Source: a bacterium
GTDB lineage: Bacteria > Myxococcota_A > UBA9160 > UBA4427
NCBI GenBank assembly: GCA_024742285.1
Contig: JANSYR010000008.1
Coordinates: 124,001-188,000, forward strand
Reading direction: 5' to 3'
DNA length: 64,000 nucleotides
The position numbers and the translations under genes were made by a program. The notes beneath the pieces are model-generated. The model searched no databases, had not been told where the DNA came from, and worked only from the letters and a program-made list of their open reading frames with translations. Position 1 is the first letter of the stretch; every line of letters begins with the position of its first letter. Positions 1 through 40,932 of this stretch are shown in pieces.

Positions 1-1412
1 GCGATGTAGCCGAGCGCATCATGAAGGAAGTGGAGCCGACCGAGCGCCGTGAACTCATCCAGCATGAGCAGAAGTCTTCTACGCCCGCCCTCCCCTTCAC
101 GGACGGCTTCAAGTTTCTCCGTCAGACGGTGCAGCACCTGTTGCAGGAGCACTCGCATCAGCACCCGTGTTCGCCTCAGGTCAGCGGGCGCAATCGTTAG
201 ATAGAGCGACGTCGGCGTCTCCGCGGCGACGAGGTCTGTGATCCGAAAATCGGATGCCTCCGTGCTCCGAGCCACGACCGGATCCGCGAATAGCCGAAGC
301 GCTCGTCGCACCGTCGAAACGACGCTCGACCGCTCGTTCGGGCTCTTGTTCAGCAACGCCTGGGCCCCGGCCGAAACCGTCGGATGCGTTCTCGTAGGCT
401 CACCCTTTGAGGGGGAACGCCACTTCCAGGCGCCGCTCGGGTCATGAGCCGTATCGATCATCTCGTTGCAAATCGTCTCGATCGGAACGCCCGGGAGCGA
501 AACGAGATCGAGGCAAGCGCGGAGAGTGGCCTGCGGCTGCGAATAGAGAACGTGCAGAGTCAGAGACGTGAGGAAATCGGCGCCGGTCTCCGTCCAATGA
601 ACGCCCGTGTCGTCGCTTCCGTCGCCGGTATCCATGATGATCGCGGCGACGTTCTGGGCGTCCCGAACCTCGAGCGGGCCTAGCCGCACCTCTTCGAGCG
701 GGTTGTACCGGGCCCAATCGGGTCCCTCGTTTCCCTCGGGCGCCGTCGGGTCGAATCGCAGCACCCGGTGGCCGAGCATCTCGCGTCGCCAAGCCGCGGT
801 CTGCGCGTAGTTCTCGCCCTTCATGTCGTGAATGATCGCGCTCTCCACCCACCCTCCGAGCAAGGTCGGAAGGACGAGCCCGACGCCCTTTCCACTCCGC
901 GTGGGAGCGAATGCAAGGCAATGGGAGGGCCCATCGTCGCGGAGGTAGAACGTGCGCGCTCCTTCACCCAATGCGCCCACATAGACGCCGGAGTCGTGGC
1001 CGAGAAGCCCGGCCTCCTCGATCTCCGCCTTCGTCGCGAAGCGGGCGGAACCATAGAGATCGCTTCGCCCGCCAATCTGCCGCGCGCGCCATACCGAGAA
1101 CCCAATGGCCCCGAGGATCGCAAGATGGGAAGGAATCGCGATCGCCCAGTGCCCCACTTCCCAGATGTGTGCCGTCTCAGCCACATCGCGAAAGCGAATT
1201 GCCCACACGAAGTAGCCCCAAGGCGGGTAGACGAGCCCTATCCACGGTGGGCCAAGTGCCTCGGCGAACCCAAGGCGCCATGCAGCCCACTGGGTCGTCG
1301 CCCAACAAGACAGGACGACGATCGCAACCGACATGGATACAGCGCCCAGTGACACGCCGGCCGCACGATTGCGCCCCCCTTTCGGAAGGTGATAGATGGC
1401 GCCACTCGTCAC
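1..1412 (-). CDS. VirD4/TraG-type conjugative coupling protein (3' end cut by window edge)
   Basis: This is the ATPase that brings the relaxase-DNA complex to the mating channel at the inner membrane. Translating the minus strand from GTG at 1412 gives 470 codons with no stop before the window edge. The N-terminus has hydrophobic stretches at about residues 24-40 and 90-108. The Walker A motif APTRSGKG lies at about 169-176 and the Walker B run LLLMLDEFTALGRL at about 447-460. A conserved HDMKGENY segment lies in between. The GTG overlaps the TGA of the upstream relaxase by four bases (GTGA), so the two are probably translationally coupled. The family usually has 600 or more residues, so the C-terminal part lies left of the window. 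Confidence 0.93.
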   Translation of the reverse strand, partial: MTSGAIYHLPKGGRNRAAGVSLGAVSMSVAIVVLSCWATTQWAAWRLGFAEALGPPWIGLVYPPWGYFVWAIRFRDVAETAHIWEVGHWAIAIPSHLAILGAIGFSVWRARQIGGRSDLYGSARFATKAEIEEAGLLGHDSGVYVGALGEGARTFYLRDDGPSHCLAFAPTRSGKGVGLVLPTLLGGWVESAIIHDMKGENYAQTAAWRREMLGHRVLRFDPTAPEGNEGPDWARYNPLEEVRLGPLEVRDAQNVAAIIMDTGDGSDDTGVHWTETGADFLTSLTLHVLYSQPQATLRACLDLVSLPGVPIETICNEMIDTAHDPSGAWKWRSPSKGEPTRTHPTVSAGAQALLNKSPNERSSVVSTVRRALRLFADPVVARSTEASDFRITDLVAAETPTSLYLTIAPADLRRTRVLMRVLLQQVLHRLTEKLEAVREGEGGRRRLLLMLDEFTALGRLHFLHDALGYI

Positions 1413-3088
1413 GCGCCGCCCTCGCGGTCTCGGTCGATTGCCTGCAGTCGCTCGAGGTCGTCGACGCGCCAAACCAATCGGTTTCGGTCGCGCACTGCGG
1501 TGGCTTGCACCTGGGCGCCGACCGCCAAATTTGCCGTCGTCGTCGCGAGCCCGACGAGCTCCCGCCCGTTGTCGACGACCGCCAACTGCTCTGCAGAGGC
1601 GCTCGTCGCGTAGCCGACGAATCGCCCTCTCTGCAGGCGCCCCTCCACGGGATCGGCAATCCGCACGGGCTTGCCGGATGGCGTTTCAAAGCGCTCGAGT
1701 GAATCCATCGTACGAATCTCCGGCGCTTCGAGTTCTGCCAGCGCTTTGAGGGCCTCATGCCAGCCCGTCGCGACCGCCCGGCGCGCGTTCTGGCCCTCAT
1801 CGACGAGAAGCAAATGCTCAAAGAGCGCACGGAAGCCATGGGCCATCCGACGCTCTTGGTGGTAGGCAAGCTCGCGTAGATCGGGGAGGTCCGACCTCCA
1901 GACCGCCACGCCATAACGCTCCACGCCGCGACGCTCGTAGGGAACCGACTCGAGGGTGACCGTCTGCCCCAATCGAAGCTGCCCACGCTCCCGCGCCTCT
2001 CGGATGCGGCGGGTCTGTTGCGCGTAGTGAACGACGCCGTTCTCTCCCTCGAGAAGGACATAGCTCCGTCCGTAGAGGTCGCTCTCGAGACCCGTTCCAA
2101 TCAATCGACCCGTCACGAACAGTCCTTCGGCGGGCTTGAACCTTCTCAGATCCGTGACAGGAGTGCGCATATGAGGAGCGTGTTGAGCGACTCGCTTCGC
2201 GATGTCGCCGGCCTGCTGCAGCTCACGAAGTAGGTCGTCGAATCCGGATTCAAGCCGCCACGTGAACGCACTTCGCTTCTGCGCCAAGCCGAGGTCGCGA
2301 AGATGCTGCAAGCGACCCAGCTCGAATCGGCGCTGCGCAGCCAGGCTCGAATCCGCCGGTGGCAGGTACGCGATACGCACGTCGCCCAAAGCATTCGACT
2401 TGTTCACCAAGGCCCGGTCAATCGACGTCCTGCGGAGTGCCGTCACTTCTCGTGACAGCGTCTCCCGGTGTTCCCGCTCGGTGCGATATCCGAGCTCGTT
2501 GGTCGCGATCTCGATGCTTCGACCTCGGAACCCATGCTTGATGTATTCGGGATCGATCTCGAGCGTCGTGCCGTCTTCTTTGCGCCCGCGGAGCATGATG
2601 TGAACATGAGAGTTATCCGTGTTCTGATGCTCGATCGCCACCCAATCAAGGCGCGTTCCGAGATCAACCGACACCCGTTCCATCAAGTTTCGCGCATGCA
2701 GGCGGAGGTCCATTCGATGCGCTTGTTCGGGGGATACGATGAGCTTCCAGAAGAGCGAATCGCCCTCCTCCTGCCAATCCCGGAGAGCGGAAGCCAGCGC
2801 GCGTTCTTCAGTTTCGGAATCGAACCCGACACCTCGCGCGCCTTCTCGCTGCGCTCCTTCGCGCTCGAGATATCGACCATGTGCAGCCCAAACCTTGTCC
2901 GCCCGATTCGGGACGTAGGCCACCTTGACCACGCTGCGCTGCAGAAAAGGCGCCGCCGCGCTGGGCACAAAGGATGACCCCGGCAATCCAAGTCGTCGGC
3001 TGAACTGAAAGCGTCGCGAAGCACGAGGATGCCGTCCGCGTTCACCGCGAATCTTCCCCGGCCGTACGCGAAGCTCGTCCTCGCTCAT
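1409..3088 (-). CDS. RlxS/DUF3363-type conjugative relaxase
   Basis: Relaxase that would nick the transfer origin and pilot the single strand into the recipient. The 559-residue protein has the histidine metal site in the motif EHQNTDNSHVHIML (His154, His161, His163). It is followed by a segment typical of RlxS/DUF3363 relaxases (RGRKEDGTTLEIDPEYI). A Tyr near residue 73 (AHGRYLER) is a candidate nucleophile. The N-terminal 50 residues are basic and probably disordered, as in this family. The ATG overlaps the stop of the upstream signal-peptidase gene (ATGA) and the stop overlaps the coupling-protein start, so this is the middle of a three-gene transfer operon. Function rests on motif and context; the exact MOB class was not computed. 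Confidence 0.92.
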   Translation of the reverse strand: MSEDELRVRPGKIRGERGRHPRASRRFQFSRRLGLPGSSFVPSAAAPFLQRSVVKVAYVPNRADKVWAAHGRYLEREGAQREGARGVGFDSETEERALASALRDWQEEGDSLFWKLIVSPEQAHRMDLRLHARNLMERVSVDLGTRLDWVAIEHQNTDNSHVHIMLRGRKEDGTTLEIDPEYIKHGFRGRSIEIATNELGYRTEREHRETLSREVTALRRTSIDRALVNKSNALGDVRIAYLPPADSSLAAQRRFELGRLQHLRDLGLAQKRSAFTWRLESGFDDLLRELQQAGDIAKRVAQHAPHMRTPVTDLRRFKPAEGLFVTGRLIGTGLESDLYGRSYVLLEGENGVVHYAQQTRRIREARERGQLRLGQTVTLESVPYERRGVERYGVAVWRSDLPDLRELAYHQERRMAHGFRALFEHLLLVDEGQNARRAVATGWHEALKALAELEAPEIRTMDSLERFETPSGKPVRIADPVEGRLQRGRFVGYATSASAEQLAVVDNGRELVGLATTTANLAVGAQVQATAVRDRNRLVWRVDDLERLQAIDRDREGGA

Positions 3089-3642
3089 CGCAGAGGCCTC
3101 GCCGAACCGAGCGCGGGGAAACTCCAGAGTGGTCGAAGCTCCCCCAACACCATATCAATCGCCACCGGCCCGAAGTAGCGCGAATCCCAGCTGCGCGGGT
3201 GATGGTTGCTGATCAACCAAACCTCACCACTCGCTACCTCGTAGACGCCGTCCGGGATGGGCGCGAGACGCCGGCCCTGTGCATCCGCTTCAGAGGGGTC
3301 GTGGTCTGAAATCCAAACGCCATTGACGCGAATCCCACCGTCCCCCAGCGAGATAAAGTCGCCGGCTATCGCACCAACCGGCTTCCCGATGGGCCGAGCG
3401 CCCCCTGGACAGCTTCCCGACTTCAGATAGCCACGGACACGGCCGAGCGTCGCGGTTTCGATCGGCAGGCATACAAGAACGATGCTGCCACGCGTGAGCG
3501 AAAGCTCAGTTGTCCAGTAAAGCCCTTTCGGCAGGCTGTCACCGGTGGCGACTCGCAGTGGAAACGCTTGAAAGTATTCCGCGCCGACCAGCAGTAGGGC
3601 CAGGACCAATACACAACCAACTCGAATGGAATGCGTTCGCAT
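3085..3642 (-). CDS. traF: TraF-type conjugative signal peptidase (S26 family)
   Basis: Inner-membrane serine peptidase. In IncP-type systems TraF matures the conjugative pilin. The 185-residue protein has one N-terminal membrane segment (about residues 8-24). The catalytic Ser36 lies in TGDSLPKGLYW and the general-base Lys is probably Lys87 in RPIGKPVGAIAGD. The late motif SWDSRYFGPV is typical of S26 peptidases. It is the first gene of the minus-strand transfer operon and overlaps the relaxase start by four bases. No pilin or T4SS channel genes are in the window, so the rest of the mating apparatus must lie to the left. Confidence 0.9.
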   Translation of the reverse strand: MRTHSIRVGCVLVLALLLVGAEYFQAFPLRVATGDSLPKGLYWTTELSLTRGSIVLVCLPIETATLGRVRGYLKSGSCPGGARPIGKPVGAIAGDFISLGDGGIRVNGVWISDHDPSEADAQGRRLAPIPDGVYEVASGEVWLISNHHPRSWDSRYFGPVAIDMVLGELRPLWSFPALGSARPLR

Positions 3643-3913: not shown

Positions 3914-4799
3914 ATGGATCAACCCGACTGCTCGCACCCCGATCACGAAGAAGACCGCCTGGTCGAAATCGACCAGGCGAAGAGCGCGCTCGAGAGAGCT
4001 TCCTCGATTCCGGAAGTGCAGCTCCTGAGAGACAAGGCGGAGTCGATCCGAATCTTTCTCCGCCAGCAACAGTCAACCCTCGAGGCGCAGAACCGAGCAG
4101 CCGAGCTCAAGCTCTATGCCGAACGGCGCCTCGGCGAACTCCTCAAAGCGCGGGTGCGCCGAGGCGGTTCGCCAAAGTCGCAGCGTGAAACATCGCTTCC
4201 CGAGGGCATCAACCGAAGCCAGTCTCACCGATGGCAACGAATCGCTTCGATCCCGCGTGAAGCGTTCGAGGAACACGTCCGCAGCAAGAAAGCGCGCGGC
4301 GACGAGATCACATCGAACGATGCTCAGCGTCTTGCCCGGTCGATCGCGCTCCGCGAGGAAGTAGCGGCGCTCGAAACCGACGAAGTCGTGACCGAATCGG
4401 CCCAGAATCTCGAGTCGCTGGTCGCGACTCATTCGGGTTCGTTTCGGACAATCTACGCGGACCCGCCCTGGGCGTACGATAACGGCGGAAGCCGCGGCGC
4501 GGCGAACAATCACTACCCCACGCTCAGCATCGACGAAATCAAGCGTCTTCCGATTTCAGATCTCGCGCACGCTCGCAGCCACCTCCACCTCTGGACGACG
4601 AACGCCTTCCTGTTCGCAGCCCGGGAGATCATTGAAGCGTGGGGGTTCGAGTACAAGAGCTGTTTCGTCTGGGTGAAACCCCAGATGGGGACCGGAAACT
4701 ATTGGCGCGTTTCCCATGAGTTCCTGCTCCTCGGCGTTCGCGGAAAACTCCCCTTCCTCGAACGTGATTGCATGAGCTGGGTCGAAGCGCCTCGCACGG
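3914..4799 (+). pseudogene. MT-A70 family adenine methyltransferase, 5' part (interrupted by IS21)
   Basis: N-terminal 295 codons of an MT-A70-type N6-adenine methyltransferase. The catalytic DPPW motif is at about residues 183-186 (TIYADPPWAYDN), with the expected downstream HLHLWTTNAFL and VWVKPQMGTGNYWR segments. The first 150 residues are charged and helical. The reading frame runs into the inserted IS at 4800 and stops at 4843, giving a 309-residue product lacking the C-terminus. Joining base 4799 to base 7501 (one CACGG copy removed) restores an open frame of exactly 364 codons through WVEAPRT and AHSRKP, ending at 7706. The catalytic motif is kept, but the truncated protein lacks the final Rossmann strand and is probably inactive. 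Confidence 0.93.
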
Positions 4800-4867
4800 T
4801 GCGCATTTCGGCGATCGTGAACGGTCATTTCGCTCCATCGTGAACAGCCGTTTCGGCGATCGTGAAC
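4800..4867 (+). repeat. IS21 left-end subterminal repeats (3 copies)
   Basis: Three copies of ATCGTGAAC begin at 4814, 4837 and 4859, spaced 22-23 bp, each preceded by a TTTCG-type box. In IS21 relatives such arrays are IstA binding sites. They match the right-end array in inverted orientation. Confidence 0.85.
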
Positions 4868-4892
4868 GGAGCGGGTCGACGCTGAATGGGGT

Positions 4893-5633
4893 TTAGCTTC
4901 GCGTCTTCGTCGCCTTTCGTCGAGAATCGCCCTCGAGAGCGATCCGGTGGGCGTTGTGGAGCAGCCGATCGCAGATGGCGTCGGCGATCGTGGCCTCGCC
5001 GACGTGGTCGTGCCAGGCCTCGATCGGCAGCTGGCTGGTCAGGATCGTCGACCGGGCGCCGTAGCGATCCTCGATGATCTCGAGCAGGTCGCGCCGCTCG
5101 CTCTGGCCCAGCGGCACGAGACCCCAGTCGTCGAGCACCAGCACGTCGACCTTGGCGAGCTTCGCCAGCAAGCGCGGATACGTGCCGTCGGCGTGCGCGA
5201 GTGCCAGCTCGTCGAAGAGCCGCGGCACGCGGCGATAGAGCGCCTTGTAGCCTCGCCGCAGCGCCTGCTGTGCCAGGGCGCAAGCGACGTAGGTCTTGCC
5301 CACGCCGGTCGCTCCCGTGACGACGACGTTCTGATGAGCGTCGATCCACTGGCACGTCGCCAGCTGACGGATCACCGACTTCTCGAGCTTCCGACGGCCC
5401 GAGTAGTCGAGATCCTCGACCGTCGCCTGAGAGAGCCTGAGCTTCGCCTGCTTCAGGTTCCGCGCCAGCTTCTTGTTCTCCCGGTCCAGCCACTCGGCGT
5501 CGACCAGCAGCGCCATCCGCTCGTCGAACCCGAGCGCCTGCACGTCGGCGTCCCCTTGTTGTTCGAGCCATGAGTCGGCCAGCGTCCCGAGCCGCATCGC
5601 GCGCAGCTTCTCCATCGTCGGTTCATTGAGCAT
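4893..5633 (-). CDS. istB: IstB, IS21 transposition helper ATPase
   Basis: AAA+ ATPase that cooperates with IstA in target selection and strand transfer. The 246-residue protein has Walker A GATGVGKT at residues 107-114 and the Walker B segment VLVLDDWGLVPL. The N-terminal helical region is typical of IstB (EWLDRENKKLARNLKQAKLR). Length is normal for the family. The start ATG at 5633 overlaps the end of istA by about 11 bases, the usual arrangement. The reading frame shows no damage. Confidence 0.95.
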   Translation of the reverse strand: MLNEPTMEKLRAMRLGTLADSWLEQQGDADVQALGFDERMALLVDAEWLDRENKKLARNLKQAKLRLSQATVEDLDYSGRRKLEKSVIRQLATCQWIDAHQNVVVTGATGVGKTYVACALAQQALRRGYKALYRRVPRLFDELALAHADGTYPRLLAKLAKVDVLVLDDWGLVPLGQSERRDLLEIIEDRYGARSTILTSQLPIEAWHDHVGEATIADAICDRLLHNAHRIALEGDSRRKATKTRS

Positions 5634-7239
5634 CGGTCAGTTCTCCTTGGTTGGGTTCGTGTTGGCTGGGTTCATGAGACTCGTAGTAGTCGCTCCCGCG
5701 CACGTTCGCGTGCAGCGGAAGACGGGGTTGCGACGTCGTCGTCGCGGCGTCGGACTCGACCACGCGATCGAGTCCGTGCTTCAGGATCGACTCGACGTGT
5801 TGATAGGAGCGGGCATGTACGCGCAGAGCACGTGCGCAGGCGGCCTCCAGCCGATCGTTGCCGTACTGCTTGGCGAGGCGCAGGATCCCCATGCAGGAGC
5901 GGTAGCCCTGCTCGGGATGGGGTCGGTCGGCCAGGATGGCCGCGACCAGCGCCCCCGTCGCCTCGCCCACGCTCTCGCCCCAGTGGATGAGCCGCGTCGG
6001 CGTCCACTCGAGATGCTTCTGGTGCGCCTTGGGCATGTGCGAGGGCTTGGTCGAGTGACGGCCCGGGATCCGATGCTCGGGGCCGTGGCGGGTGTGAGAC
6101 GCCACCCGTTCGCCCCGGAAGTAGACCTCGAGCGTCCCGGCCGTGAACCGCAGCTCCACGGCCTCTCCGACCAGAGCGTGGGGAACCGAGTAGTAGTGGC
6201 CCTCCAGCTCGACGTGGTAGTCGATGTTCACCTTCGCGTGCTTCCACTCGGCGAAGACGAAGCGGGTGGACGGAAGCGGGCGCAGGGCGGGCCGGTCGAG
6301 CTTCTCGAACAGCTCCCGACGACTGGCGCGGTAGCTCCGCATGGGCCGGGCGTTGAGCTCGTCGAGCCGCTCGCGGATCCGCGTGTTGAGCACGGCCAGG
6401 GAGAAGAACGTCTCGTGGCGGATCCGTGCGAGGATCCAGCGCTGGACGATCTGGACGGCCACCTCGACCTTGGCCTTGTCCTTCGGCTTGCGAGGCCGGG
6501 CCGGCATCGCCGTCGTGCCGTAGTGCTCGGCCATCTCCTCGTAGGTGCGCTGCAGACCGGGCTCGTAGCGACAGGCGCGCGTCACGCCGCTCTTCAGCTG
6601 ATCGGGCACGAGCAGCTCGGTCACGCCGCCGAAGTACTCGAAGGCGCGCACGTGCGAGGCGATGAAGTCGGCCGACTTCTGACTCTCGGTGGCCTCCGCG
6701 TAGGTGTAGTTCGAGGCGCCGAGGGTCGCGACGAAGAGCTCGACCTCGCGCACCTCGCCGCTGGTCGGGTCGACGACGCTGGGCTTCTTTCCCGAGTAGT
6801 CGATGAAGAGTTTTTCTCCCGCCCGATGGCGTTGGCGCATGGAGCGCTTCTGCTGGCCCAGCCAGCGGCGGTAGTAGTCACAGAACTGCGTATAGGCGTA
6901 GCCGTCGGGGTGGCGCTCCCGGTACTCGTGGTGGAGGAGCTGGAGCGTGACGCCCTTCTGGCCGAGCTCCGTGTGGACCTCCGACCAGTCGGGCAGCGGG
7001 CGAGCCGGGGATCCGCCCAGGGCCTGGCGGTAGAGCCGGTGCTCGAGCTCGACCTCGCCGAGCGGCAGCACGGCCTCCCAGGACTCGAGTCCCGCCGCCC
7101 GGGCTCGGGACAGCGCGGCCGAGACCGCGCCCAAGCTCACGCCCAGGCTTCCCGCCACCTCGCGGTGGCTCCGCCCGAGCGCCCACTTCTGCCTCAGGAT
7201 CTCTCGCAATCGTCGCATCGACAGTCTCCGACCCGCCAT
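5623..7239 (-). CDS. istA: IstA, IS21-family DDE transposase
   Basis: Transposase that binds the terminal repeats and catalyses cut-and-join transposition. The start at 7239 (MAGRRLSMRRL) is chosen because GAGGAGGAGAG lies just upstream; earlier in-frame starts lack such a site. An N-terminal helix-turn-helix (HREVAGSLGVSLGAVSAALS) is followed by an RNase H-like core. Likely catalytic acidic residues are in FIDYSGKKP, LVPDQLKSGV and KAKVEVAV. The C-terminus contains a beta-rich domain (VELEGHYYSVPHALVG). The product is about 538 residues, normal for IstA. Confidence 0.94.
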   Translation of the reverse strand: MAGRRLSMRRLREILRQKWALGRSHREVAGSLGVSLGAVSAALSRARAAGLESWEAVLPLGEVELEHRLYRQALGGSPARPLPDWSEVHTELGQKGVTLQLLHHEYRERHPDGYAYTQFCDYYRRWLGQQKRSMRQRHRAGEKLFIDYSGKKPSVVDPTSGEVREVELFVATLGASNYTYAEATESQKSADFIASHVRAFEYFGGVTELLVPDQLKSGVTRACRYEPGLQRTYEEMAEHYGTTAMPARPRKPKDKAKVEVAVQIVQRWILARIRHETFFSLAVLNTRIRERLDELNARPMRSYRASRRELFEKLDRPALRPLPSTRFVFAEWKHAKVNIDYHVELEGHYYSVPHALVGEAVELRFTAGTLEVYFRGERVASHTRHGPEHRIPGRHSTKPSHMPKAHQKHLEWTPTRLIHWGESVGEATGALVAAILADRPHPEQGYRSCMGILRLAKQYGNDRLEAACARALRVHARSYQHVESILKHGLDRVVESDAATTTSQPRLPLHANVRGSDYYESHEPSQHEPNQGELTDAQ

Positions 7240-7338
7240 CTCTCCTCCTCGTGGAGGCGATGGCGAGCGAACTGTCCAGCGTCGACGGGCTCCCTGGCCC
7301 ACCCCCGTGCTCGTGTGAGCCTGAGGGGGTAGCCCAGC

Positions 7339-7495
7339 GTTCACGATCACCGAAATGGGTGTTCACGATGGCCGAAACGGGTGTTCACGATCCCGAAATG
7401 GCTGTTCACGATCACCGAAATCGGTGTTCACGATCGACCGAAACGAGTGTTCACGTTGGAGCGAAATGGGTGTTCACGATGCTCCGAAACACGCA
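7339..7495 (-). repeat. IS21 right-end subterminal repeats (7 copies)
   Basis: Seven copies of GTTCACGAT (one as GTTCACGTT) begin at 7339, 7361, 7383, 7404, 7426, 7449 and 7472, with a 21-23 bp period of about two helical turns. They are the inverted counterpart of the three left-end copies and probable IstA binding sites. The array sits upstream of istA, so it may also affect its promoter. Confidence 0.85.
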
Positions 7496-7706
7496 CACGG
7501 CTCACAGCCGCAAACCCGCGCTCGTTTCGGAGCTCATCGAGCGCGTCTCGAGCCCGCCGCGGCTCGAACTTTTCGCCCGCTCGAAACGAGATGGCTGGAC
7601 GACTTGGGGCAACCAGTCCGAGTCGGGCCCTCCACCCTTTCCGGCGCGATCGGCGTCAATCCCAGAGTCCGCAAACAACGAACGTCACGAGGAGATCTAC
7701 CAATGA
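7496..7706 (+). pseudogene. MT-A70 family methyltransferase, 3' part after IS21 insertion
   Basis: C-terminal remainder of the methyltransferase that starts at 3914. The frame reads AHSRKPALVSELIERV, then SPPRLELFARSKRDGWTTWGNQ, which is the standard C-terminal signature of MT-A70 proteins (HSRKP followed by LELFARR.GW..WGN). The TSD copy CACGG occupies 7496-7500. It ends with TGA at 7704-7706, which overlaps the ATG of the following NYN gene (ATGA). The two genes were therefore translationally coupled before the insertion. Confidence 0.93.
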
Positions 7707-8407
7707 GCAATATGAACCAGAGCCTTCAGGCCGTACGCAGCTCCGGGATGGCGATTCCCGGCCCTCTGATTGTCGGAATCGACCACAGCAACATCCTCAT
7801 CACCGCTCAGAATCACTCCCGCCAAATCGGAGACCCAAGACCTGAGAATCTGCGGCTGGACATCCCCAACTTGGTGAGGCTCGCCACTGCAGGGCGCATG
7901 CTGACCTATGGCGTGGCAGTCGGATCAAAAATTGGCTCAAAGTCGCCGATTCAATCCATCTATGAACGATCTGGGTTTCAGGCGATCTTTCTCGAGCGCG
8001 GGTTGGTCACCGGACGTGAGGTCGGTGTCGACGTCACCCTTGCCTCAGAACTGCAGTGGTGCTCATTCGAACGAACGCCTGGAACGGTCGTGCTCTTGAC
8101 GGCAGACGGCGCAGGATACGGACGTGGTCGCGGCTTCTTCGCGCTTCTTGAGCGCATGTACCAGATCGGTTGGTCGGTCGAGCTTCTTGCCTACGAAGAC
8201 TCGACGCATCGCGCGATGGCGGACTGGGCAAGGTCGATGGGCCAATTTCGCGATTTGGCGACGTTTCACGAGTCCATCACGTTCGTACCAGGTCGTCGCT
8301 ACTCGACACCGCTCCCGCAGGGTGGAAGACGATTCGAGACATGCATGCGCCCTTCGGCTGAACAAGGCTCCGACTACGAGGACCAGTTGTCCCCGAAGAG
8401 CGCCTGA
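7703..8407 (+). CDS. NYN-domain (LabA/PIN-like) putative nuclease
   Basis: The 234-residue protein resembles NYN-type PIN-like RNases. It has an early acidic motif (IVGIDHSNILIT), a central acidic block (GREVGVDVTLASEL) and the late motif VVLLTADGAGYGRGRGFF, which aligns with the family's SGDGDF region. The tail after residue 205 is polar and lacks a recognisable domain. The start at 7703 has GAGGAG upstream and overlaps the stop of the MT-A70 gene, implying one transcription unit with it. The IS21 insertion upstream may reduce its expression or supply a new promoter. Substrate is unknown. A second NYN protein faces it convergently at 8498. Confidence 0.75.
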   Translation: MSNMNQSLQAVRSSGMAIPGPLIVGIDHSNILITAQNHSRQIGDPRPENLRLDIPNLVRLATAGRMLTYGVAVGSKIGSKSPIQSIYERSGFQAIFLERGLVTGREVGVDVTLASELQWCSFERTPGTVVLLTADGAGYGRGRGFFALLERMYQIGWSVELLAYEDSTHRAMADWARSMGQFRDLATFHESITFVPGRRYSTPLPQGGRRFETCMRPSAEQGSDYEDQLSPKSA

Positions 8408-8497
8408 AGTCACATCGACTAGGGGATGTGGCAAGCAGCCTGGCTGCAGCCACTCCCCCATACCGGGAGGCATTCACGGGCGGGAATGTGAGAGCGA

Positions 8498-9853
8498 CTA
8501 GCCTCGCCCTTCCTTCATGATCGTTTCAACAAACTGATATTCTGAGGCTTCCCACGATCCAACCTTCCCCGTGAACATTACGAGTAGTCCCTCCAAACGA
8601 GCAGGCGGCTTACTGCTCTCCTCCAGTTCACGTTCTAGCTTTCTAAACATGTGGACCTGAACGGCGAATCGAAACGCCCCCAAAGAAGGCGTTGTCTCCG
8701 ACAACACGACCTTCTGGTTTTCGTGAGTCGCAGGCTTTCCCTCGTGTGGACCTGCTGCGACCTGCAGACATTGCGAATCGCGGATCTGAAAGATGACGTC
8801 GTCGACGATCACCTTATCGATCAAGATGTCATTTTCGCTCCTGACATCCCAAAGAGCTCGAATCGTAGCGAGGCTTGTGAAGTCACCGAAGGATGCGGCG
8901 TGATGAATCTCTTCAAAAACCCACCTCGTAATCTCCTCCCAATCCTCTACGCCCACCCATACCGGGCGTCTGTGATTGCTATTCGCTCCGGATTTTCGCG
9001 TCAGAATCGCCATGTAGTCGCGGGCAAGATTCTCAGCATCTGCATCCGCCTGCGAAGAGCCATCTTGCCGACGAGTCAGATAGTAGTCCCGACCGCGGCG
9101 ACGAATCAAAGTGCCGAGTCCCGTCCCCTGGTCCCGAAAATACTGTTCCGCACTCGTGTAGCCGAAGGACGCGAAGTCAACGGGGTGGACTGTTTCCAAA
9201 AGTTGAACGACAACTCCGAGGCGCACTTCCGATGCGGTGGAAAGAACTTCCCTAATTCGCTTCGCGATCGCCTCTGTATGTTTCGCGAGTTCATCCTTTT
9301 TTTCACGCATCAAGAGGGAACGACGAAGTCTCTCGACATCCTTCAGCTCTTCGAGGTAGAGAAACTGATCTGCAACCGCACGGTACGACAGCTTCGCATT
9401 GCCAAAACCCACGACGACAACTCGCGCTCCTCGCTTCTTGAGAGCAATCACAAGTGGCCTCAAGTCACCATCACTGCCGGCGAGCACGAAGGTCTCAATT
9501 TCAGCGTTCAGTAATTGAAGCTCGATCGCATCAACGATCAGTTGATTCTCGGCGGAGTTCTTGTGTTCCTTCCCAGGCACATCGAGCGTCTCGAATCCGA
9601 TTGCATTGAGTTGATCACGGACACCAATGGCAACTCCCTTTTTCGACCCAGCAGGCGGGATGAAATCTGCGTAAGCTCGAACAATTCTCAGATCGGATTC
9701 GTTGACAAGCTCCTTCGTATAGTCGAGAAGGCTTTGCATGTCCTCTTCGACGACCTCCGGGAATGCCGCGAGCGCGGCCTTGTCTGATTCGCGCGCTTTC
9801 TGTCCTCCGACATAGTAGTTCTCAAAATCCACCAGAAGCGCAGCCGTGCCCAT
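8498..9853 (-). CDS. NYN-domain protein with OST-HTH/LOTUS-like region
   Basis: A 451-residue protein starting at ATG 9853 (MGTAALLVDFENYY). The NYN catalytic region spans about residues 1-180, with acidic motifs LVDFENYY, NQLIVDAIELQLL and FVLAGSDGDLRPLV. Residues about 200-265 resemble an OST-HTH/LOTUS fold (KRIREVLSTASEVRLGVVVQ through GRDYYLT), which in other proteins binds RNA. The remaining 180 residues are unassigned. The start at 9898 is possible but less likely, because AAGGG lies just before 9853. The architecture suggests an RNA-directed nuclease. It is convergent with the other NYN gene and sits beside a large nuclease-helicase. Confidence 0.8.
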   Translation of the reverse strand: MGTAALLVDFENYYVGGQKARESDKAALAAFPEVVEEDMQSLLDYTKELVNESDLRIVRAYADFIPPAGSKKGVAIGVRDQLNAIGFETLDVPGKEHKNSAENQLIVDAIELQLLNAEIETFVLAGSDGDLRPLVIALKKRGARVVVVGFGNAKLSYRAVADQFLYLEELKDVERLRRSLLMREKKDELAKHTEAIAKRIREVLSTASEVRLGVVVQLLETVHPVDFASFGYTSAEQYFRDQGTGLGTLIRRRGRDYYLTRRQDGSSQADADAENLARDYMAILTRKSGANSNHRRPVWVGVEDWEEITRWVFEEIHHAASFGDFTSLATIRALWDVRSENDILIDKVIVDDVIFQIRDSQCLQVAAGPHEGKPATHENQKVVLSETTPSLGAFRFAVQVHMFRKLERELEESSKPPARLEGLLVMFTGKVGSWEASEYQFVETIMKEGRG

Positions 9854-10197
9854 CCTGAATCCCTTCGCGATTGCCCGACGCGTTCCCGTGAGTATCACGA
9901 GTCGAGCCAGGTGCTCGATGACCCCTTTGTATAGCTCCGCTAGAGCGACGGTTCATGGGTTCAGCCACCCCCGTAAGGATCGGCCGCGATCAGACCCACG
10001 GCGCCATTCAGCGAATGACCAGCGGCTGGCAGTCACCGAAAGAAGGCCACGAAAAGGGCGGATCAACATCTCCCGAAACATCGGCGAGATACGGGTCGCC
10101 CTCGAGACTCGCCAGGTGTCTCCCGAGTGCCCTGGAGTACGAGCCTAAACTCCGCCGCGACACGGTTTTCGGCTAATGCGGTGCCGCAGACGGAAGC
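9854..10197. other. Intergenic region, no supported gene
   Basis: This 344-bp stretch lies between the NYN-OST gene start and the end of the small helical-protein gene. A 51-codon minus-strand frame (GTG near 10163 to TGA near 10011) is open, but it has no good ribosome binding site and no recognisable motif. The promoter for the 9853 gene must lie near 9860-9950. Confidence 0.35.
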
Positions 10198-10527
10198 CTA
10201 TCGAGCCCGCATCGAAAGGTGACATGCCAACAGACATGCGAAATCGCCAATTGTCTTGCGGTCGTTACCTAGGCTTTCGCGCCAATCAATCGAATGGCCC
10301 TCTCGCCTCATCGACCGACTCAAAATATTGCAACAGTCGATGAAGGCATCATGCGCACTCGACCGAGCTTGATCCATCTGCCTCCTCGCGTCCAAGCTTT
10401 CGACGGCCCAGCGTGCGCGGAATCCCGCGTAGCGGACGGCGGACGCAAGCAGCTGTTCGACTAGCCTTGGATCCCCCACCGACTCGAGTCGAGAAAGCAG
10501 ATCTCTGGATTCTTCAAAGGAAATCAT
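10198..10527 (-). CDS. Small helical protein downstream of RecB-like nuclease/helicase
   Basis: Hypothetical protein of about 109 residues from ATG 10527 (MISFEESRDLLSRLES). An upstream in-frame start at 10605 would overlap the preceding gene by 40 bp and is less likely. The sequence is rich in Leu, Arg and Ala and predicted mostly helical, with one Cys pair (FIDCCNILS) and no signal peptide. I do not recognise a family. It lies 38 bp downstream of the nuclease-helicase on the same strand and is probably cotranscribed, so an accessory role to that protein is possible. Confidence 0.55.
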   Translation of the reverse strand: MISFEESRDLLSRLESVGDPRLVEQLLASAVRYAGFRARWAVESLDARRQMDQARSSAHDAFIDCCNILSRSMRREGHSIDWRESLGNDRKTIGDFACLLACHLSMRAR

Positions 10528-10565
10528 TCGCGATAGGTCCCACAGGCCGTAAACGAAGACAGATC

Positions 10566-13500
10566 TTATGACGGGACCTTCTCCGCGAGCTCCCCATACC
10601 GACAAATCGCATTCACCAACTTCATCTGCTTAGGACTCCGACACTCCGCCCCCATGAGCTTCGGACTCCCCACGATCACGACCGCACACTGCGCCCGCGA
10701 AGTCGCCACATTCAGCCGGTTCGCGCTGAGCAAGAACTCGAGCCCCCGCGGCGCATCCTCCGCCGAACTCGTCGTCATCGAATAGATCACGATCGGCGCT
10801 TCCTGCCCCTGAAACTTATCCACCGTCCCCACCGGCACATCCGCGGGCAAGGCCGCCCGAAGCGCGGCCACCTGCGCGTTGTAGGGCGCCACAACGAGAA
10901 TCTCTTCCAAGCCGACCGGCTGAACCACACCCTCGCGATCGGTCCACTCGACCCCGCTCGCGCCGAACTCCTCCACGAGCCGAGCGACGACCTCGACTTC
11001 CTCCGGCGCACTCGTCTGATTTCCCTCGTGCGAGCACGGCACATACCAAAGCCCTGCCCCCTCCCTGCCCTCCGAAGGTTCCGCCAACCGCGTGGGCCCG
11101 GTGATGCGTTGGCCTTCACAACCCGAACGCGACCGAAGCTTGCCTTCGTAGTAGGTCTCCGAAGTAAACGCACAGATATCGGGATGCAGACGCCACGTTT
11201 CGGGAAGAAAGAGCCCGCGATCCTCGGAAATCGTGTCTCTCCCTTCGAGCAAATGATCGAGGACCGAGACCTCGCTGCCGTCGGGATGACTGCCTTGGAT
11301 GGGTTGGTCGAGCTGCTGTGGATCACCGAGCAGAATCAGATTGCGCGCTGCTTGCGAGGCCGCGACCGCATTGGCCAACGAGAGTTGCCCCGCCTCGTCA
11401 ACGACGAGCGTATCAAGGGTTTCGAACGCTTCCGAACGCGCCCAGCCCCAAACGGTCGCGCCGCCCACCTGGGCGCTGCCCGACGCCAGCTCTTGGTCAA
11501 ATGCGTCGTTGGTCTTTGGGATGATGACGTACTGCGGAATCTCTTCGTCCTTATCCTTGCGTCGCTTCGCGCAGCGAACGGAAACTCCCATCTCCTCTGC
11601 AGCCTCAGGGATCTTCTTGATGAGATTCACGATGACTTTGTGGCTATTCGCGGTGATGCCGACTTTCTGGCCGGCGGCGACAAGCGCGCAGATCATGCGC
11701 GCACCGGCGTGACTTTTGCCCGTCCCAGGCGGCCCTTGAATCGCCAACACCCCACCGTCCAAGTCGAGCGCGAGCCGCTTCGCGGCTTCGACCGAATCTT
11801 CACCGGGCGCACTCAGAGCGCCCTTGATGGGCGTCGCAAATCGGGGCCTCCGCCGCATCAATAGATCCCGTGCAGCACGGTAGGGTCCCGGCGCATCGAT
11901 GCCGTTTTCTGCCACCCACTCGGCAATCGTCTCGATCGCCTCCGGAATCGGGTACGGGCGCACGCTGTCATGTGCGAAGGCAGCCACCGGATGTTCATCC
12001 TTGCTTTTCTGATTCTTTTTGACGTCGACTTCGCGACGGACCGGATCGATATCAACGACTTTTCCAAGTGTGAAGTCGCGGTCGACTTTGAGCGTGTTGC
12101 CCACTCGAATATCGAAATCTTGCTCGACGAAGCGATATCGATGGACCGGGAGTTGGCGCTTGGGAACGGGCAGTTCTTCGAGAAACTCGAGCCCGTAGAG
12201 CCCATGTCGTTCAAACGCGAGGTCCTCGACCGCCAAGTCCTCCAGGCGGAACAGTTCCCATGCGGTGGCCTTTGATTCCCGCCGATGCCACTCAAGCAAC
12301 TGAGCCAGCAACCAGATGCCGTGCTCCTCCGGGGTCCGCTCGCCGGGATCTTCGGGCAGGCCTTCCGTCATCCGCTCGGCCAGTTTTCGGCGGCGGTTCA
12401 GCGCTTCATCCAGCTTTTCGGAAGGATCGCCATCCTTGATTGTGGCTCGAACGATCTCGACGCCCTCGCCCACCTGTTGACTGCGAACCTCTTCGAGCCA
12501 GTCGCGCAGCGAAAGCGTCGAAAGACAATCATCCTTGTTGTAGACGGCCACCCGAGCACGCTCTTCGTGAGAAATCGCCTCTCCCTGCCCGAGCTCAAGT
12601 GCTCGCTCGACAGTTCGCATCCCGGCCGAGGCATCGCGCAAGTCGAGCTCCCGCTCGAATCCATGAACGGCCTCGAGCTGCTTCAGGCCGTACGCCTCTA
12701 CCCCAATGCGAAGAGACTCCTTCACGACCTGGTGGAGGTCGACGAATCGCTCGCTTCGCAGCAAGAAGTCGAGTTCCGCCTCGCGAGTCGCATGCCGCCC
12801 CATCAGTCGCTTCAGCGCCGCCGGCTCGTAGGGAGCAAAGTGGTAGATATGGAGCCCCGGAAACGCCTCGATGCGATCTACCACGAAATCTATCCAGCTT
12901 TCGAAGACGTGCTTCTCCTCCGCGTGCGTGAGCGCCCAGCGTTCCTCGTATGCGCGTGAGCCGTCGGGACTCAGCTCTACCCATCCAAACAAGTATTCGA
13001 GGCCACCCCCATCGACGAACGGGTCACCTTCGAAGTCGAAGAAGAGATCGCCGGGTGAAGGCTCGGGAAGCCGTGCGAGACCGGTCTCGGGCTCACCGGC
13101 TGGGAGAACCTCGACGAGCGGTTTCTCTGCGTTTCGAGATTCCAGCTGAATTCGGGCTTGGTGATGGACACGCTCGTAGCTCTCGGGCGAACCACGTTTT
13201 GGTCTGGGCGCGAGCGGCATGGACGTCCCCGCCAGCGCTGTGAGCGAATCAACATCACGCCCGACGAGCACGTCCCGCTGCAATCGGCTGATGCCCGCTA
13301 CGAGCGAGAGATGGTCATCGACGTGGCGCTGTTTGTCGCATCGACTCCACCACTTGCAGATATCGCACTGCGGGACCGGCTCGGGGTAGGTTGCAAACTC
13401 TAGCTGGCCCGCTGCTTCAGACGCGTTCGAATCCATTGGTTCCGCGACGACCCCCTCCAGTTCCGCGCGAATTCGCCGGTAGTAGGCCATGAAATCGCTG

Positions 13501-14081
13501 GTCCGAAAGCAGTCGGGCTCGTCGTAGCGCCCAGGCGAGATGACGCGAATCTCGTCAGGAAGGCGGCCTTGCAGATCGCTCAGGAGGTCGCTGTAGAGGC
13601 AAAGCTGAAGGACGGTGCCACCGCGGGTTTCGAAGGCAAGTTTCGTATCGACCGCGATGTAGGACCAAGCGCCCAAGTCGCTGGGCTCGTCAACCCGAAG
13701 CAGCACATCAGCAAATCCACGCCAACGCCCACGCACAAGCGGCGCTTGAACAATGGCCTCCGCTCCCCTGGCCATGAGTTCACGAGTCACGGCGACGCCG
13801 CGCGCATCCAGTGAGCGATCGCCCTCATTCACAGATTCGACGCCAACACCCTGCTCTCGCAGGAAATCGAGATAGGCGTTCTCGTGCGCCAAGCCGCGTT
13901 CGCGTAGGACTTCAAGCGTCGGGTCGTGCCAGTCGGGAGACTCGATGAGCTGATGCGCGCGGGCACACTCAAGCCGGGTGAGATGCTGGCAACCGAGGTG
14001 ATTTGCGAGATCTGTCGCCGAAAGTTGAAGCTGCCCTTCGTGTTCGGATTTCTTCACGAGCGCTTTTGCTCCTACCCGCAT
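10566..14081 (-). CDS. RecB-like nuclease / RNase H-like / SF1 helicase fusion (TM0106-type)
   Basis: An 1171-residue protein. The N-terminus (LSATDLANHLGCQHLTRLE) and a Cys cluster near residue 240 (CDICKWWSRC) match TM0106-family RecB-like nucleases related to Cas4. A ribonuclease H-like exonuclease segment follows near residue 345 (DLFFDFEGDPFVDGGG). The C-terminal half is an SF1 helicase: Walker A GPPGTGKS near 785, DEAGQLSLANA near 895, LLGDPQQL, DKFQGQEAPIVIYSM near 1090, and a final RLNVATSRAQ motif. ATG 14081 is preferred over TTG 14084. Such proteins probably unwind and degrade or process DNA. Neighbouring NYN nucleases suggest a defence role, but none is shown for this protein. Confidence 0.88.
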   Translation of the reverse strand: MRVGAKALVKKSEHEGQLQLSATDLANHLGCQHLTRLECARAHQLIESPDWHDPTLEVLRERGLAHENAYLDFLREQGVGVESVNEGDRSLDARGVAVTRELMARGAEAIVQAPLVRGRWRGFADVLLRVDEPSDLGAWSYIAVDTKLAFETRGGTVLQLCLYSDLLSDLQGRLPDEIRVISPGRYDEPDCFRTSDFMAYYRRIRAELEGVVAEPMDSNASEAAGQLEFATYPEPVPQCDICKWWSRCDKQRHVDDHLSLVAGISRLQRDVLVGRDVDSLTALAGTSMPLAPRPKRGSPESYERVHHQARIQLESRNAEKPLVEVLPAGEPETGLARLPEPSPGDLFFDFEGDPFVDGGGLEYLFGWVELSPDGSRAYEERWALTHAEEKHVFESWIDFVVDRIEAFPGLHIYHFAPYEPAALKRLMGRHATREAELDFLLRSERFVDLHQVVKESLRIGVEAYGLKQLEAVHGFERELDLRDASAGMRTVERALELGQGEAISHEERARVAVYNKDDCLSTLSLRDWLEEVRSQQVGEGVEIVRATIKDGDPSEKLDEALNRRRKLAERMTEGLPEDPGERTPEEHGIWLLAQLLEWHRRESKATAWELFRLEDLAVEDLAFERHGLYGLEFLEELPVPKRQLPVHRYRFVEQDFDIRVGNTLKVDRDFTLGKVVDIDPVRREVDVKKNQKSKDEHPVAAFAHDSVRPYPIPEAIETIAEWVAENGIDAPGPYRAARDLLMRRRPRFATPIKGALSAPGEDSVEAAKRLALDLDGGVLAIQGPPGTGKSHAGARMICALVAAGQKVGITANSHKVIVNLIKKIPEAAEEMGVSVRCAKRRKDKDEEIPQYVIIPKTNDAFDQELASGSAQVGGATVWGWARSEAFETLDTLVVDEAGQLSLANAVAASQAARNLILLGDPQQLDQPIQGSHPDGSEVSVLDHLLEGRDTISEDRGLFLPETWRLHPDICAFTSETYYEGKLRSRSGCEGQRITGPTRLAEPSEGREGAGLWYVPCSHEGNQTSAPEEVEVVARLVEEFGASGVEWTDREGVVQPVGLEEILVVAPYNAQVAALRAALPADVPVGTVDKFQGQEAPIVIYSMTTSSAEDAPRGLEFLLSANRLNVATSRAQCAVVIVGSPKLMGAECRSPKQMKLVNAICRYGELAEKVPS

Positions 14082-34631: not shown

Positions 34632-34950
34632 ACTGTGACCATTTCATCCCCCGTATTCCCACTCATTCCGCCCTATTCCGTCTCGGAATCTCCTAACCCC
34701 TTGTTTTTCCTAGACCCCGTATAAGGCTTCGAACCTGAGGGTCGGGGGTTCGAATCCCTCCCGGCGTACCATTCTTTTTCAAGCACTTAGGTCGGCTCTT
34801 GTTAGGCCCCTGTCTTGGGTAGCCTGATGCTCTACGGGATCCGGCCCGAACGGCCGAGCGGATTTCGCTTCAGTTCGAAGTACTTGCGAACCGACCTCGC
34901 TCGCGTTCGTTGCCTGCGTTTGGACACGATCGGTCACGCGCGGGGCACAT
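34632..34950 (+). repeat. tRNA-3'-half att-like repeat, copy A
   Basis: Left arm 34632-34720 begins ACTGTGACCATTTC and includes spaced ATTCC direct repeats. The tRNA-like core is 34721-34771: anticodon loop CTTCGAA, stem CCTGA, variable GGGTC, T-stem/loop GGGGG-TTCGAAT-CCCTC, acceptor CCGGCGT, discriminator A, CCA. The right arm (34772-34950) contains CAAGCACTTAGG, GTTAGGC at 34801 and GTAGCCTGATGCTCT. There is no D-arm or 5' acceptor strand, so it is not a working tRNA gene. It is shared with copies B to E in the same orientation. It probably marks the right end of the ICE. Confidence 0.85.
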
Positions 34951-35463
34951 ACCGCGTCGGCCGAACCCCGAAAGGCCGGTAAGGCATTCAACGCGCTGTG
35001 TCTATCGCGGGATCGTCCCGGGTCATGTCGTAGTGGAGCAGGCCGGGGATCTCGGCGGAGACGCCGACGCAGTCGATCACGTCGAAGAGCGCCGTGTCGT
35101 CGTCGGCGCCGAGCACGATTTACTTCGCGACGCGCGGATTCACGAACTGCATCACGCGCACCAGCTGCACGGCGATCTGTGCGCGCATCTACAGCGGGCT
35201 CGGGCGCTGGCCCTCGTGCAGGTGGTGGCGGATAAGGCATTCAAGGCGCGTTTTCGCCACCACCGATATCTACGCTTCTGACAACTGGCGTCCCGGCGGG
35301 GAGGAAACGGCCCTTACCGGGGCGATTTCAAGGTTGCGCGCGGGCGGGCTGCGGGCGATCGGCGTTCGCCCGCGGGCGCGGTGCCGTCGGGGCGAACAGG
35401 TCCCTGGCCGCGACGCGAGTCGAGCAGATCGGGCAGGCGCGGGGAGCCTTGAAAGCCACCGTC
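34951..35463 (-). other. Decayed fragment region between copy A and the IS91-like transposase
   Basis: No intact gene. On the minus strand between about 35190 and 34995, an open stretch interrupted by one TAA reads RAQIAVQLVRVMQFVNPRVA, then DDDTALFDVIDCVGVSAEIP. It looks like a remnant of an unidentified coding sequence. At 35277-35320 a segment starting TCTGACAACTGGCG resembles segments at 47536 and 48949 and may be a mobile-element end. Confidence 0.35.
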
Positions 35464-37302
35464 CTATTCAGACTCCGGGCCCGACTGATCGAAGTCGAAG
35501 CCCGGGTCGTCGCCCCAGTCGAGCTCGGAGGAGGGCTCGTCGAAGCGTCCCTCAGCTCGAGGCTTCGAGGCAGCCAGCGGCGGGGCTCGTGACGGCATCT
35601 TCAGGCAGTCCAGGATGCGACGGGCCACGTCCGGATCCGTGATCGCCGAGAGGACCCGCATCCGAGCGCCGCAGCCGGGGCAGCACAGCGCGTCGACCTC
35701 GAAGACGCGCTGGAGAAGATCGGCCCAGGCCGTTCGACGCGAGTCCCCACGTCTGTCCGTAGGCGCCCGCGTCGCCGCCGACGACCGCTCACCCTCGGTG
35801 GCGCGCACATCCGGCATGGGCGACTCGGTCGGAAGAACCACAGGTAGAGACCCATCGTCGACTCCACCCGGGCCCGACCAGACCTGCGTCCCTGTCGAAA
35901 GCGCCCCCGGCTCCCCAGAGCTCGAACTTCGTCTCGCTCCGACGCCCAGTTCGAGGGTCGGATCGACGCCGCCCACCATCGATCGCCCGGCGACGACGAC
36001 CTGATCTCGCCCTTCCTCTACAGGCCCCGGCACCACCCGATCCCGTCCACTCGCGCACGGGGCCAGCACCCCGTGGTATCGAACCTGATGCGCTCGCGGA
36101 GGCGGAACCAGCGGTGCCAGGCGCTCGAGCAGCTCCGTCCGCTCCATCACGACGTGCGTCGTCCCGTCCCTCCACGGCGTCTTGAGTCGATAGGCGAGCC
36201 GTCCGTCATGCATCTCCTCGAGCCGCTCGAGGGCCAGCGGCGGACGTGCCACGTAGCGACACAGACGCTCGAGCCGACGACGATCCCTTGCCGGGACCGC
36301 CACGTCGGCGTGCAGGCTCATCCCGCCGTGGCGGACACAGCGCGGCGGGATCCCGGCCCCGGGCTCGACGCCGTCCTCTTCTTGATCGTCGAAGCCGGGA
36401 TCGACCCGATCCCCGAGCCGCCGCCACGGTTCACCGGCCTCCGGCCCTGTCGCGATCCGGGAACGGATCGACGCCGCAGTGAGCATCGCCAGCAGCGGCT
36501 CGTCCTCGGCCAGGCGATCCTCGCCTTCCTCGATCCCCAGAGCCTCGAGCTGTCGGCGGATCCGCCGGGCCGTCCCCGCCAGGACGCGGGCCACGTCGTC
36601 AGTCTCGGGCGGGTCGAGCGCGCGGAAGCGGCCGGGCGTTCTCGCGCCCCCCTCGTACACCCCGTCGAGCACGAGCGCATGGAAGTGCGGCGTCAGGTTG
36701 AGGGCCGAGCCGAAGCGCTGGATGAACGTGACCGAACCGCACGCCCCGCCCCGCACCCCGAAGTCCCGCTTCGCGCGCCGTCGGTAGTCTGCGAACATGG
36801 CGCGCAGGAAGCCGCGCAGCACCTCGCTCGTGAGCCGCGCGTTCCAGGCACAGCGATACCGGAGCGGATAGGGAAGTGTGAGCACCCACTGGCGGACGGG
36901 CACTTCGGGAAGGACCCGATCGACGAGATGGGCGGCCGTATCCGCCATCCTGCGCCCGCCGCAGGACGGACAGAAGCCACGCCTCTTGCATGAGAAGGCG
37001 ACGAGCCGATCGTGGCCGCAGGCGTCGCAGTGGACGCGCAAGAAGCCGCGGGTGAGCACGCCGCACTCGAGATACGCCCGGATCTCCCGCTCGACGAAGC
37101 GCGCGACGGGCGCACCCGCCGACCGGGAGCGTTGGAGGAACGACTCGAGGTCTTCGCGCACGACGCGGTGGAGGAGCGTCTTCTCGGGCTCGTGGCGTTC
37201 GTATTCGATGAGGACGGCGCCCGCGAGACCGGGACGGAAGCCATTTCCATACGCAAGCCGTGTGCCCAAGCAGGGCGAGCGGTATGCCGTGTCGCAACGC
37301 AT
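35464..37302 (-). CDS. IS91-like HUH transposase
   Basis: A 612-residue rolling-circle-type transposase. An N-terminal Cys cluster (residues 92-114: CDACGHDRL, SCKRRGFCPSCGGRR) forms a zinc-binding domain. The catalytic HUH pair is His206/His208 in LNLTPHFHALVLDGV. A candidate nucleophile Tyr350 lies in LCRYVARPPL. A second Cys motif near the C-terminus (ALCCPGCGARMRVLSAITD) is also typical of this family. The frame is intact. First Met is at 37302. Element ends were not defined by eye. It sits inside the cassette between att-like copies A and B. Confidence 0.88.
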   Translation of the reverse strand: MRCDTAYRSPCLGTRLAYGNGFRPGLAGAVLIEYERHEPEKTLLHRVVREDLESFLQRSRSAGAPVARFVEREIRAYLECGVLTRGFLRVHCDACGHDRLVAFSCKRRGFCPSCGGRRMADTAAHLVDRVLPEVPVRQWVLTLPYPLRYRCAWNARLTSEVLRGFLRAMFADYRRRAKRDFGVRGGACGSVTFIQRFGSALNLTPHFHALVLDGVYEGGARTPGRFRALDPPETDDVARVLAGTARRIRRQLEALGIEEGEDRLAEDEPLLAMLTAASIRSRIATGPEAGEPWRRLGDRVDPGFDDQEEDGVEPGAGIPPRCVRHGGMSLHADVAVPARDRRRLERLCRYVARPPLALERLEEMHDGRLAYRLKTPWRDGTTHVVMERTELLERLAPLVPPPRAHQVRYHGVLAPCASGRDRVVPGPVEEGRDQVVVAGRSMVGGVDPTLELGVGARRSSSSGEPGALSTGTQVWSGPGGVDDGSLPVVLPTESPMPDVRATEGERSSAATRAPTDRRGDSRRTAWADLLQRVFEVDALCCPGCGARMRVLSAITDPDVARRILDCLKMPSRAPPLAASKPRAEGRFDEPSSELDWGDDPGFDFDQSGPESE

Positions 37303-37479
37303 CGACCCGTCCAGTCCTCACGTCGAGACGAGCCGCCCGGGGCAGACGAGGCCTCGAGTTCACCCGTTGCCCGTGAACCCGGGTCGGCGCCAGGCGCCCT
37401 CTTCCCGCCTGCTACCCTCTGCGGTCAGCGCGGTCAGAATGTCCAGGTCGGACCCTCCGACCGCGAAGCCGGAGTGCAC

Positions 37480-38075: not shown

Positions 38076-38112
38076 TCATCACGCGTCGGCAGACACTCTT
38101 CGACCTCGTTCC

Positions 38113-40669: not shown

Positions 40670-40932
40670 AAGCGAACTGCAAGCGTGCTGCCTCGAAGTT
40701 GCCCAACCAAATCGCGCACTTGCTGCCACATAGGCGCGAGTCGCACGGCGCCTCTTGGTCACAGATGGTCACAATCGCGTCGCAACGCCGGTCGCGCAGT
40801 ATCACCAGTTTCGCCGGCGCCACCGCCATCGGCCCGAAGTGCTGCCCCTCGCGAAGCAGAACAGGCGGCGGTTCCCGTCTTGACAAGCGTTAGGCCGCCA
40901 CCGGACAAGTAACCTCGACGGGAAAGATCGCC

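Follow-up and report, generated by a model that had tools for sequence, protein, structure and literature searches.

The cargo zone of this ICE was probably assembled from independent pieces and does not form one system, with a large nuclease-helicase as the piece likely to act in defence. The pieces would be: an ATGA-coupled pair of an MT-A70 methyltransferase gene and a NYN gene (NYN1), the former apparently inactivated by an IS21 element; a lone NYN-OST gene, seemingly a divergent relative of a gene in most genomes of the class; and a TM0106-type nuclease-helicase gene followed by that of a small helical protein. Three observations bear on the last of these: its domain architecture, its intact active sites, and the recurrence of its homologs beside defence systems. 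It is most likely an ICE-borne, DNA-degrading candidate defence factor. An earlier note on this DNA had proposed one defence module of four genes; this is largely refuted within the collections searched, as the genes do not co-occur elsewhere and the methyltransferase gene is broken.

The mobile element and its borders

The window, meaning the whole 64,000-nucleotide stretch analysed, comprises positions 124001-188000 of contig C8 in a 56-contig, 6.5-Mb assembly; coordinates below are those of the window unless prefixed with C8. The ICE is real, because a 50-bp direct repeat in tRNA-Arg, a tyrosine integrase, VirB8/VirB4 and a relaxase are all present. The ICE proper measures 68.7 kb and is integrated in tRNA-Arg. 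Third-position GC falls from ~0.9 in the host to 0.6-0.75 from about 90 kb of C8 onward. The 3' part of tRNA-Arg(TCG) (C8:90043-90119) is the source of the direct repeat. The left att copy, at C8:90072, lies in the 3' end of this tRNA gene at the left end of the ICE, and the first right-hand copy (34724-34772, plus strand) is a 49-bp stretch identical to the tRNA-Arg 3' end.

The gene content of the ICE runs in order: tyrosine integrase; type I R-M genes (HsdM, HsdS); VirB8/VirB4-type transfer genes; relaxase region; and cargo. The type I R-M genes lie near the integrase end and outside the window (C8:99103-105769), where HsdM, HsdS and an HsdR-like frame are found. Transfer genes occupy the first part of the window on the minus strand (1-3642) and include a TraG/VirD4-like gene, assigned by reading the ORF (3-1472), a DUF3363 relaxase (1409-3088) and an S26 TraF-like peptidase (3085-3642), the latter two identified by Pfam. 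The peptidase and relaxase genes flank the cargo on the left; on the right it is bordered by an ArsR-like gene, behind which come efflux genes (OEP). This position between transfer genes and metal-resistance genes agrees with the earlier description.

Past the ICE, further right-hand att copies were found at 38205, 40564 and 43201, the repeat being 47-50 bp. The four tandem right-hand repeats bound three small segments of about 3.5, 2.4 and 2.6 kb, and this series of att-bounded segments is an accretion array. The segment at 34724-38205 holds a transposase-like ORF (35464-37302) and, from ORF reading, a putative small antitoxin with a Doc/Fic-type toxin (about 37477-38075). In the segment at 40564-43201 lies a type IV toxin-antitoxin pair, AbiEi/AbiEii (40933-42916); its AbiEii protein has a weak C-terminal WYL match.

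Architecture of the nuclease-helicase

The nuclease-helicase (10566-14081, minus strand; 1171 aa) is a TM0106/COG2251-type protein that joins: an Fe-S PD-(D/E)XK nuclease; a DEDD (RNase H-like) exonuclease; and an SF1 Upf1/Dna2-like helicase. Residues 21-529 match NCBIfam TIGR03491 over its full length (profile 2-462 of 462; E=1.2e-68) with a score of 232.2 bits, above the curated cut-off of 97.45 bits, and the RNase_H_2 domain (E=1.9e-16) falls inside this match at residues 346-529. An SF1 helicase (AAA_11/AAA_12, IGHMBP2-like; AAA_12 E=4.8e-28) makes up the C-terminal half. Its nearest PDB entries are UPF1 (E=2.9e-16) and DNA2 (E=2.7e-12); the nuclease half has no PDB match by sequence.

Alignment with 80 homologs indicates that the residues expected for each predicted activity are retained. 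The Fe-S cysteines C31, C239, C242 and C248 are all present; the last three are kept in 80/80 homologs and C31 in 78/80, with two gaps. The PD-(D/E)XK residues E67, D125, D145, K147, Q159 and Y163 are likewise kept throughout. The exonuclease residues D349/E351/D518, the Walker A and B motifs and the key helicase residues of the C-terminal part show no variation or almost none.

COG2251 proteins combine a PF13482 exonuclease with a PD-(D/E)XK domain (DUF83), frequently with tandem AAA domains (PMC3985635), and the architecture of the window protein agrees with this published classification. Its domain order is that of the TM0106 family (TIGR03491; COG2251) fused to an SF1 helicase. The layout also resembles that of eukaryotic DNA2, an Fe-S nuclease with an SF1 helicase; relative to DNA2 and UPF1, the window protein has an additional RNase H-like exonuclease domain. 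Hna likewise joins a helicase and a PD-(D/E)XK nuclease in one large chain, and a similar logic is possible. It is, however, an SF2 DinG-like protein of 845 aa that lacks an Fe-S cluster and carries its nuclease C-terminally (PMC13381803). The window protein is an SF1 enzyme whose Fe-S-type nuclease is N-terminal and which has a DEDD domain besides, and this difference in motor superfamily and nuclease position rules out Hna as its identity. Nuclease-helicase immunity was also considered as an identity and set aside.

Neither PADLOC-DB v2 nor NCBIfam attaches a named defence system or function to the TM0106 family. A literature search returned no defence paper for TM0106 or TIGR03491, and COG2251 yields classification papers only. 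The protein is a good single-gene defence candidate from a known enzyme family that has no named defence system.

Genomic context of the homologs

Loci were built around the 80 best nuclease-helicase matches from 84,980 genomes, with flanks reaching 10 kb if the contig was long enough, and the neighbours were clustered into recurrent families and then matched to PADLOC. Antisense ORFs aside, most tested recurrent families match: type I HsdM, DrmD, PDC-S37/Hhe, HerA, SIR2, and type III Mod and Res; further recurrent neighbours match SngA, SngB and SngC of Shango. Two tested families have no PADLOC match (L050:9132-10043 and the ArdC-like L070:2439-3461). At least one defence gene occurs in 40 of the 80 loci and in none of 28 control stretches taken from that genome set (Fisher p=1.6e-7, a value that overstates the case, as the defence-gene probes were drawn from those 80 loci and the contrast is partly circular). 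The independent part of the association is that the recurrent neighbours proved to be defence families. The TM0106-helicase family is strongly associated with defence loci, a link that comes from the present analysis.

Shango genes frequently adjoin the nuclease-helicase gene directly. In L069, L094 and L107 the genes run SngA, SngB, SngC, nuclease without interruption on a single strand, SngC and the nuclease gene being 24-96 nt apart, and L061 resembles them; a divergent SngA lies 208-322 bp away in Mesorhizobium, L091 and the acidobacterial L104. The loci with SngABC directly beside a TM0106-helicase, L054 and L055 among them, show these two arrangements and come from several bacterial groups, including Mesorhizobium, Bradyrhizobium, Hyphomicrobium and an acidobacterium. 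Shango-linked rows are spread over more than one clade of the homolog tree. A role for the TM0106-helicase as an accessory nuclease of Shango is possible. Hhe-like genes lie on the same strand about 40-260 nt away or overlapping in L044, L063, L073 and L097. In Ensifer (L030) the TM0106-helicase gene comes after two others, one for a DrmD-like helicase and one TmtA-like.

Relatives of the nuclease-helicase were found in 104 plasmid records, 29 of them conjugative. The ArdC-like (antirestriction-type) gene that lacks a PADLOC match recurs near L048, L059, L070, L102, L114 and L121, which suggests plasmid or ICE contexts for TM0106-helicases.

These contexts also bear on whether the enzyme serves general DNA repair or recombination and simply rides on mobile elements. 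The helicase domain is Dna2/Upf1-like, and some homologs lie near dinB, ImuA, error-prone polymerase or SbcCD-like genes. Separately, the defence reading is weakened by about half of the homolog loci having no named defence neighbour. Against a repair role stand the defence genes at the other half, the scatter of several phylum labels across the homolog tree, and a patchy occurrence, with a full-length or long homolog in only about 7/91 genomes of the class. On this evidence a repair enzyme is fairly unlikely, and a defence factor is the preferred reading.

Around the window copy itself, Shango (SngA, SngB and SngC), DrmD, HerA, Hhe and type III partners are absent from the window and the two adjacent 20-kb stretches. 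Of the families probed, only the type I R-M (HsdM) of the ICE matched, about 30 kb distant.

The small helical protein

One candidate partner of the window nuclease-helicase is present: a 109-aa protein encoded on the same strand, 38 bp downstream of the stop codon of the enzyme gene (10198-10527, minus strand), with ATG 10527 as its probable start. AlphaFold2 predicts an all-helical bundle, described as four-helix (mean pLDDT 88.7). ORF calling, profiles and AlphaFold2 thus bear out the earlier description of a small helical ORF beside an 1171-aa nuclease/helicase.

A fold search against the PDB gave no match at E<=0.001. The only relative in the plasmid collection is on a Mammaliicoccus plasmid (E=8e-7), where it adjoins genes for an EEP phosphatase and a PIN_8 nuclease. 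A weak match was recorded in G435 (E=4.5e-4); those in G078 and G649 were rejected as chance, their frames overlapping a transporter gene and a bacteriochlorophyll-type gene. The protein appears to be an orphan family.

It has been considered whether the two genes form a system of their own, in which the small protein would inhibit the enzyme, act as its sensor or be its immunity partner. The shared strand and 38-bp spacing, the confident helical-bundle model and the nuclease and phosphatase genes beside the Mammaliicoccus relative are consistent with such a pairing. In contrast, no TM0106 gene was seen at the Mammaliicoccus locus, and the small protein is near none of the 80 homologous enzymes and in none of 50 of the genomes carrying them, the latter a weak result from a set with no positive control. 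A dedicated two-gene system is therefore unlikely; the enzyme would work by itself or supplement other defence systems as an added nuclease.

The MT-A70-NYN1 pair and the IS21 insertion

The MT-A70 gene is interrupted by a 2,696-bp IS21-family element (4800-7495, minus strand) that contains istB (4893-5633) and istA (5623-7350); NCBIfam identifies its IS21 transposase (E=3.8e-86) and IstB (E=1.2e-75). Consistent with insertion, the element has matching ends (TGCG..TTTCGG) with multiple subterminal repeats and is flanked by a 5-bp target duplication, CACGG, at 4795-4799 and 7496-7500. The N-terminal part of the methyltransferase (3914-4799, plus strand) matches Pfam MT-A70 (E=2.9e-13, profile 1-110 of 172) and PADLOC MTase_II (E=4.7e-31). 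The C-terminal remnant (7496-7706, plus strand) returns to frame when the flanks of the element are joined, giving one continuous 363-aa MT-A70 frame (...EAPRTAHSRKPALVSELIERVSSPPRLELFARSKRDGWTTWGNQ... across the junction). The region was reported from 7496 because this is the right-hand IS21 junction, so that only the C-terminal stub of MT-A70 lies inside it.

The MT-A70 stop codon overlaps the NYN1 start codon as ATGA (7703-7706). From this overlap and the joined frame, it follows that a coupled MT-A70-NYN1 unit once existed. The presence of an MT-A70 gene is supported by both profile sets; its place as an intact member of the gene set is lost, and to judge from the sequence it is now a pseudogene, inactivated by IS21.

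NYN1 (7703-8407, plus strand; 234 aa) is a putative PIN-like NYN-domain protein, recognized through alignment and a Pfam NYN score (E=0.0056) that falls below the curated cut-off. Alignment with relatives indicates that active-site residues D27, N30, E106, D110 and D135 are retained, and the catalytic Asp/Asn are invariant in alignment with Chloroflexota and Hymenobacter relatives at 26-34% identity. No NYN1 relatives were found in 284 genomes of the phylum or in 349 Pseudomonadota. A few occur in Chloroflexota (34-37%), with ordinary gene neighbours, and a distant one (37%) occurs in one of the 50 genomes with nuclease-helicase homologs, on a different contig.

The NYN-OST gene

The second NYN gene (8498-9853, minus strand; start codon ATG 9853) is convergent with NYN1, as ORF calling and profiles confirm. 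Its product comprises: a NYN nuclease domain at residues 4-168 (Pfam E=2e-18); an OST-HTH-like region at about 190-262; and a C-terminal region of ~180 aa. The earlier assignment holds fully for the NYN domain; the OST-HTH-like region is unscored by Pfam in the window protein and is seen through alignment with host-type NYN-OST proteins, whose OST-HTH does score. An AlphaFold model made with no alignment was uninformative (pLDDT 33).

Both NYN proteins have distant relatives only, and both predicted active sites appear largely preserved. For NYN-OST, the scan of the genome contig collection gave no close relative, and the C-terminal ~180 residues (8498-9043) have no detectable relative among plasmids. 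Scans of viral contigs gave no matches for any of three proteins, namely NYN1, NYN-OST and the small helical one. Weaker relatives of NYN-OST are single-copy genes in 75/91 genomes of the class, the host included. These housekeeping-type NYN-OST (LOTUS) proteins share with the window protein the NYN domain and, by alignment, the OST-HTH-like region after it, at 25-30% identity; the ICE copy differs in its extra C-terminal residues and in a D-to-E change at position 102. The window protein thus appears to be a divergent, ICE-borne relative of a gene common to most genomes of the class. Because relatives are this widespread, the family is not defence-specific. The earlier view that these protein types recur in phage-defence contexts is supported for the nuclease-helicase family.

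Evidence against a single module

In a single multi-gene module, the methyltransferase would mark self DNA, the NYN proteins would cut RNA, the nuclease-helicase would destroy DNA and the small protein would regulate. Points consistent with this are the physical grouping of the genes on an ICE, the ATGA coupling, the largely kept NYN active sites, the type I R-M on the same ICE and the AbiE pair in a neighbouring att-bounded segment. The arrangement of the locus argues against it: the genes form three units and occupy both strands, in keeping with the earlier expectation of at least two transcription units. Promoter and terminator scans of the locus performed no better than shuffles. None of the 80 nearest nuclease/helicase loci carries, in the flanks covered, a gene for the small protein, the MT-A70 N-terminal part or either NYN protein. 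The disruption of MT-A70 and the position of NYN relatives elsewhere, outside recognised defence contexts, point the same way. No named system has such a gene composition, in agreement with the earlier note. A single module is accordingly very improbable; the absence of relatives may still be compatible with a very rare, lineage-specific one. Cargo assembled from independent pieces remains the favoured explanation.

Discussion

If the nuclease-helicase acts in defence, its domains suggest the following steps: the SF1 motor would load onto invading or damaged DNA; ATP-driven unwinding would follow; and the Fe-S PD-(D/E)XK and DEDD sites would degrade the strands fed to them by the motor, analogous to Dna2 or AddAB. 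DNA as the substrate, the direction or polarity of movement, the trigger and a protective effect against phage are inferred, as is whatever part the small protein may play.

More tentatively, and with the balance somewhat against it, TM0106 nuclease-exonuclease-helicases could constitute an unnamed, widespread anti-phage or anti-plasmid factor, working alone on ICEs and elsewhere as an interchangeable DNA-degrading add-on to Shango, Hhe-like, DrmD-like, type I and III R-M, and HerA-SIR2 systems; here, a new small helical partner might control the enzyme.

In place of a vaguely delimited candidate of four genes, the analysis offers a single gene family that can be tested. It also illustrates that ICE cargo can mimic a module through accretion, and that one part of such cargo may already be disrupted by an insertion sequence. 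Should the family prove protective, defence would gain an architecture with three DNA-processing activities in one chain, and unrelated defence systems would appear to share a DNA-degrading accessory.
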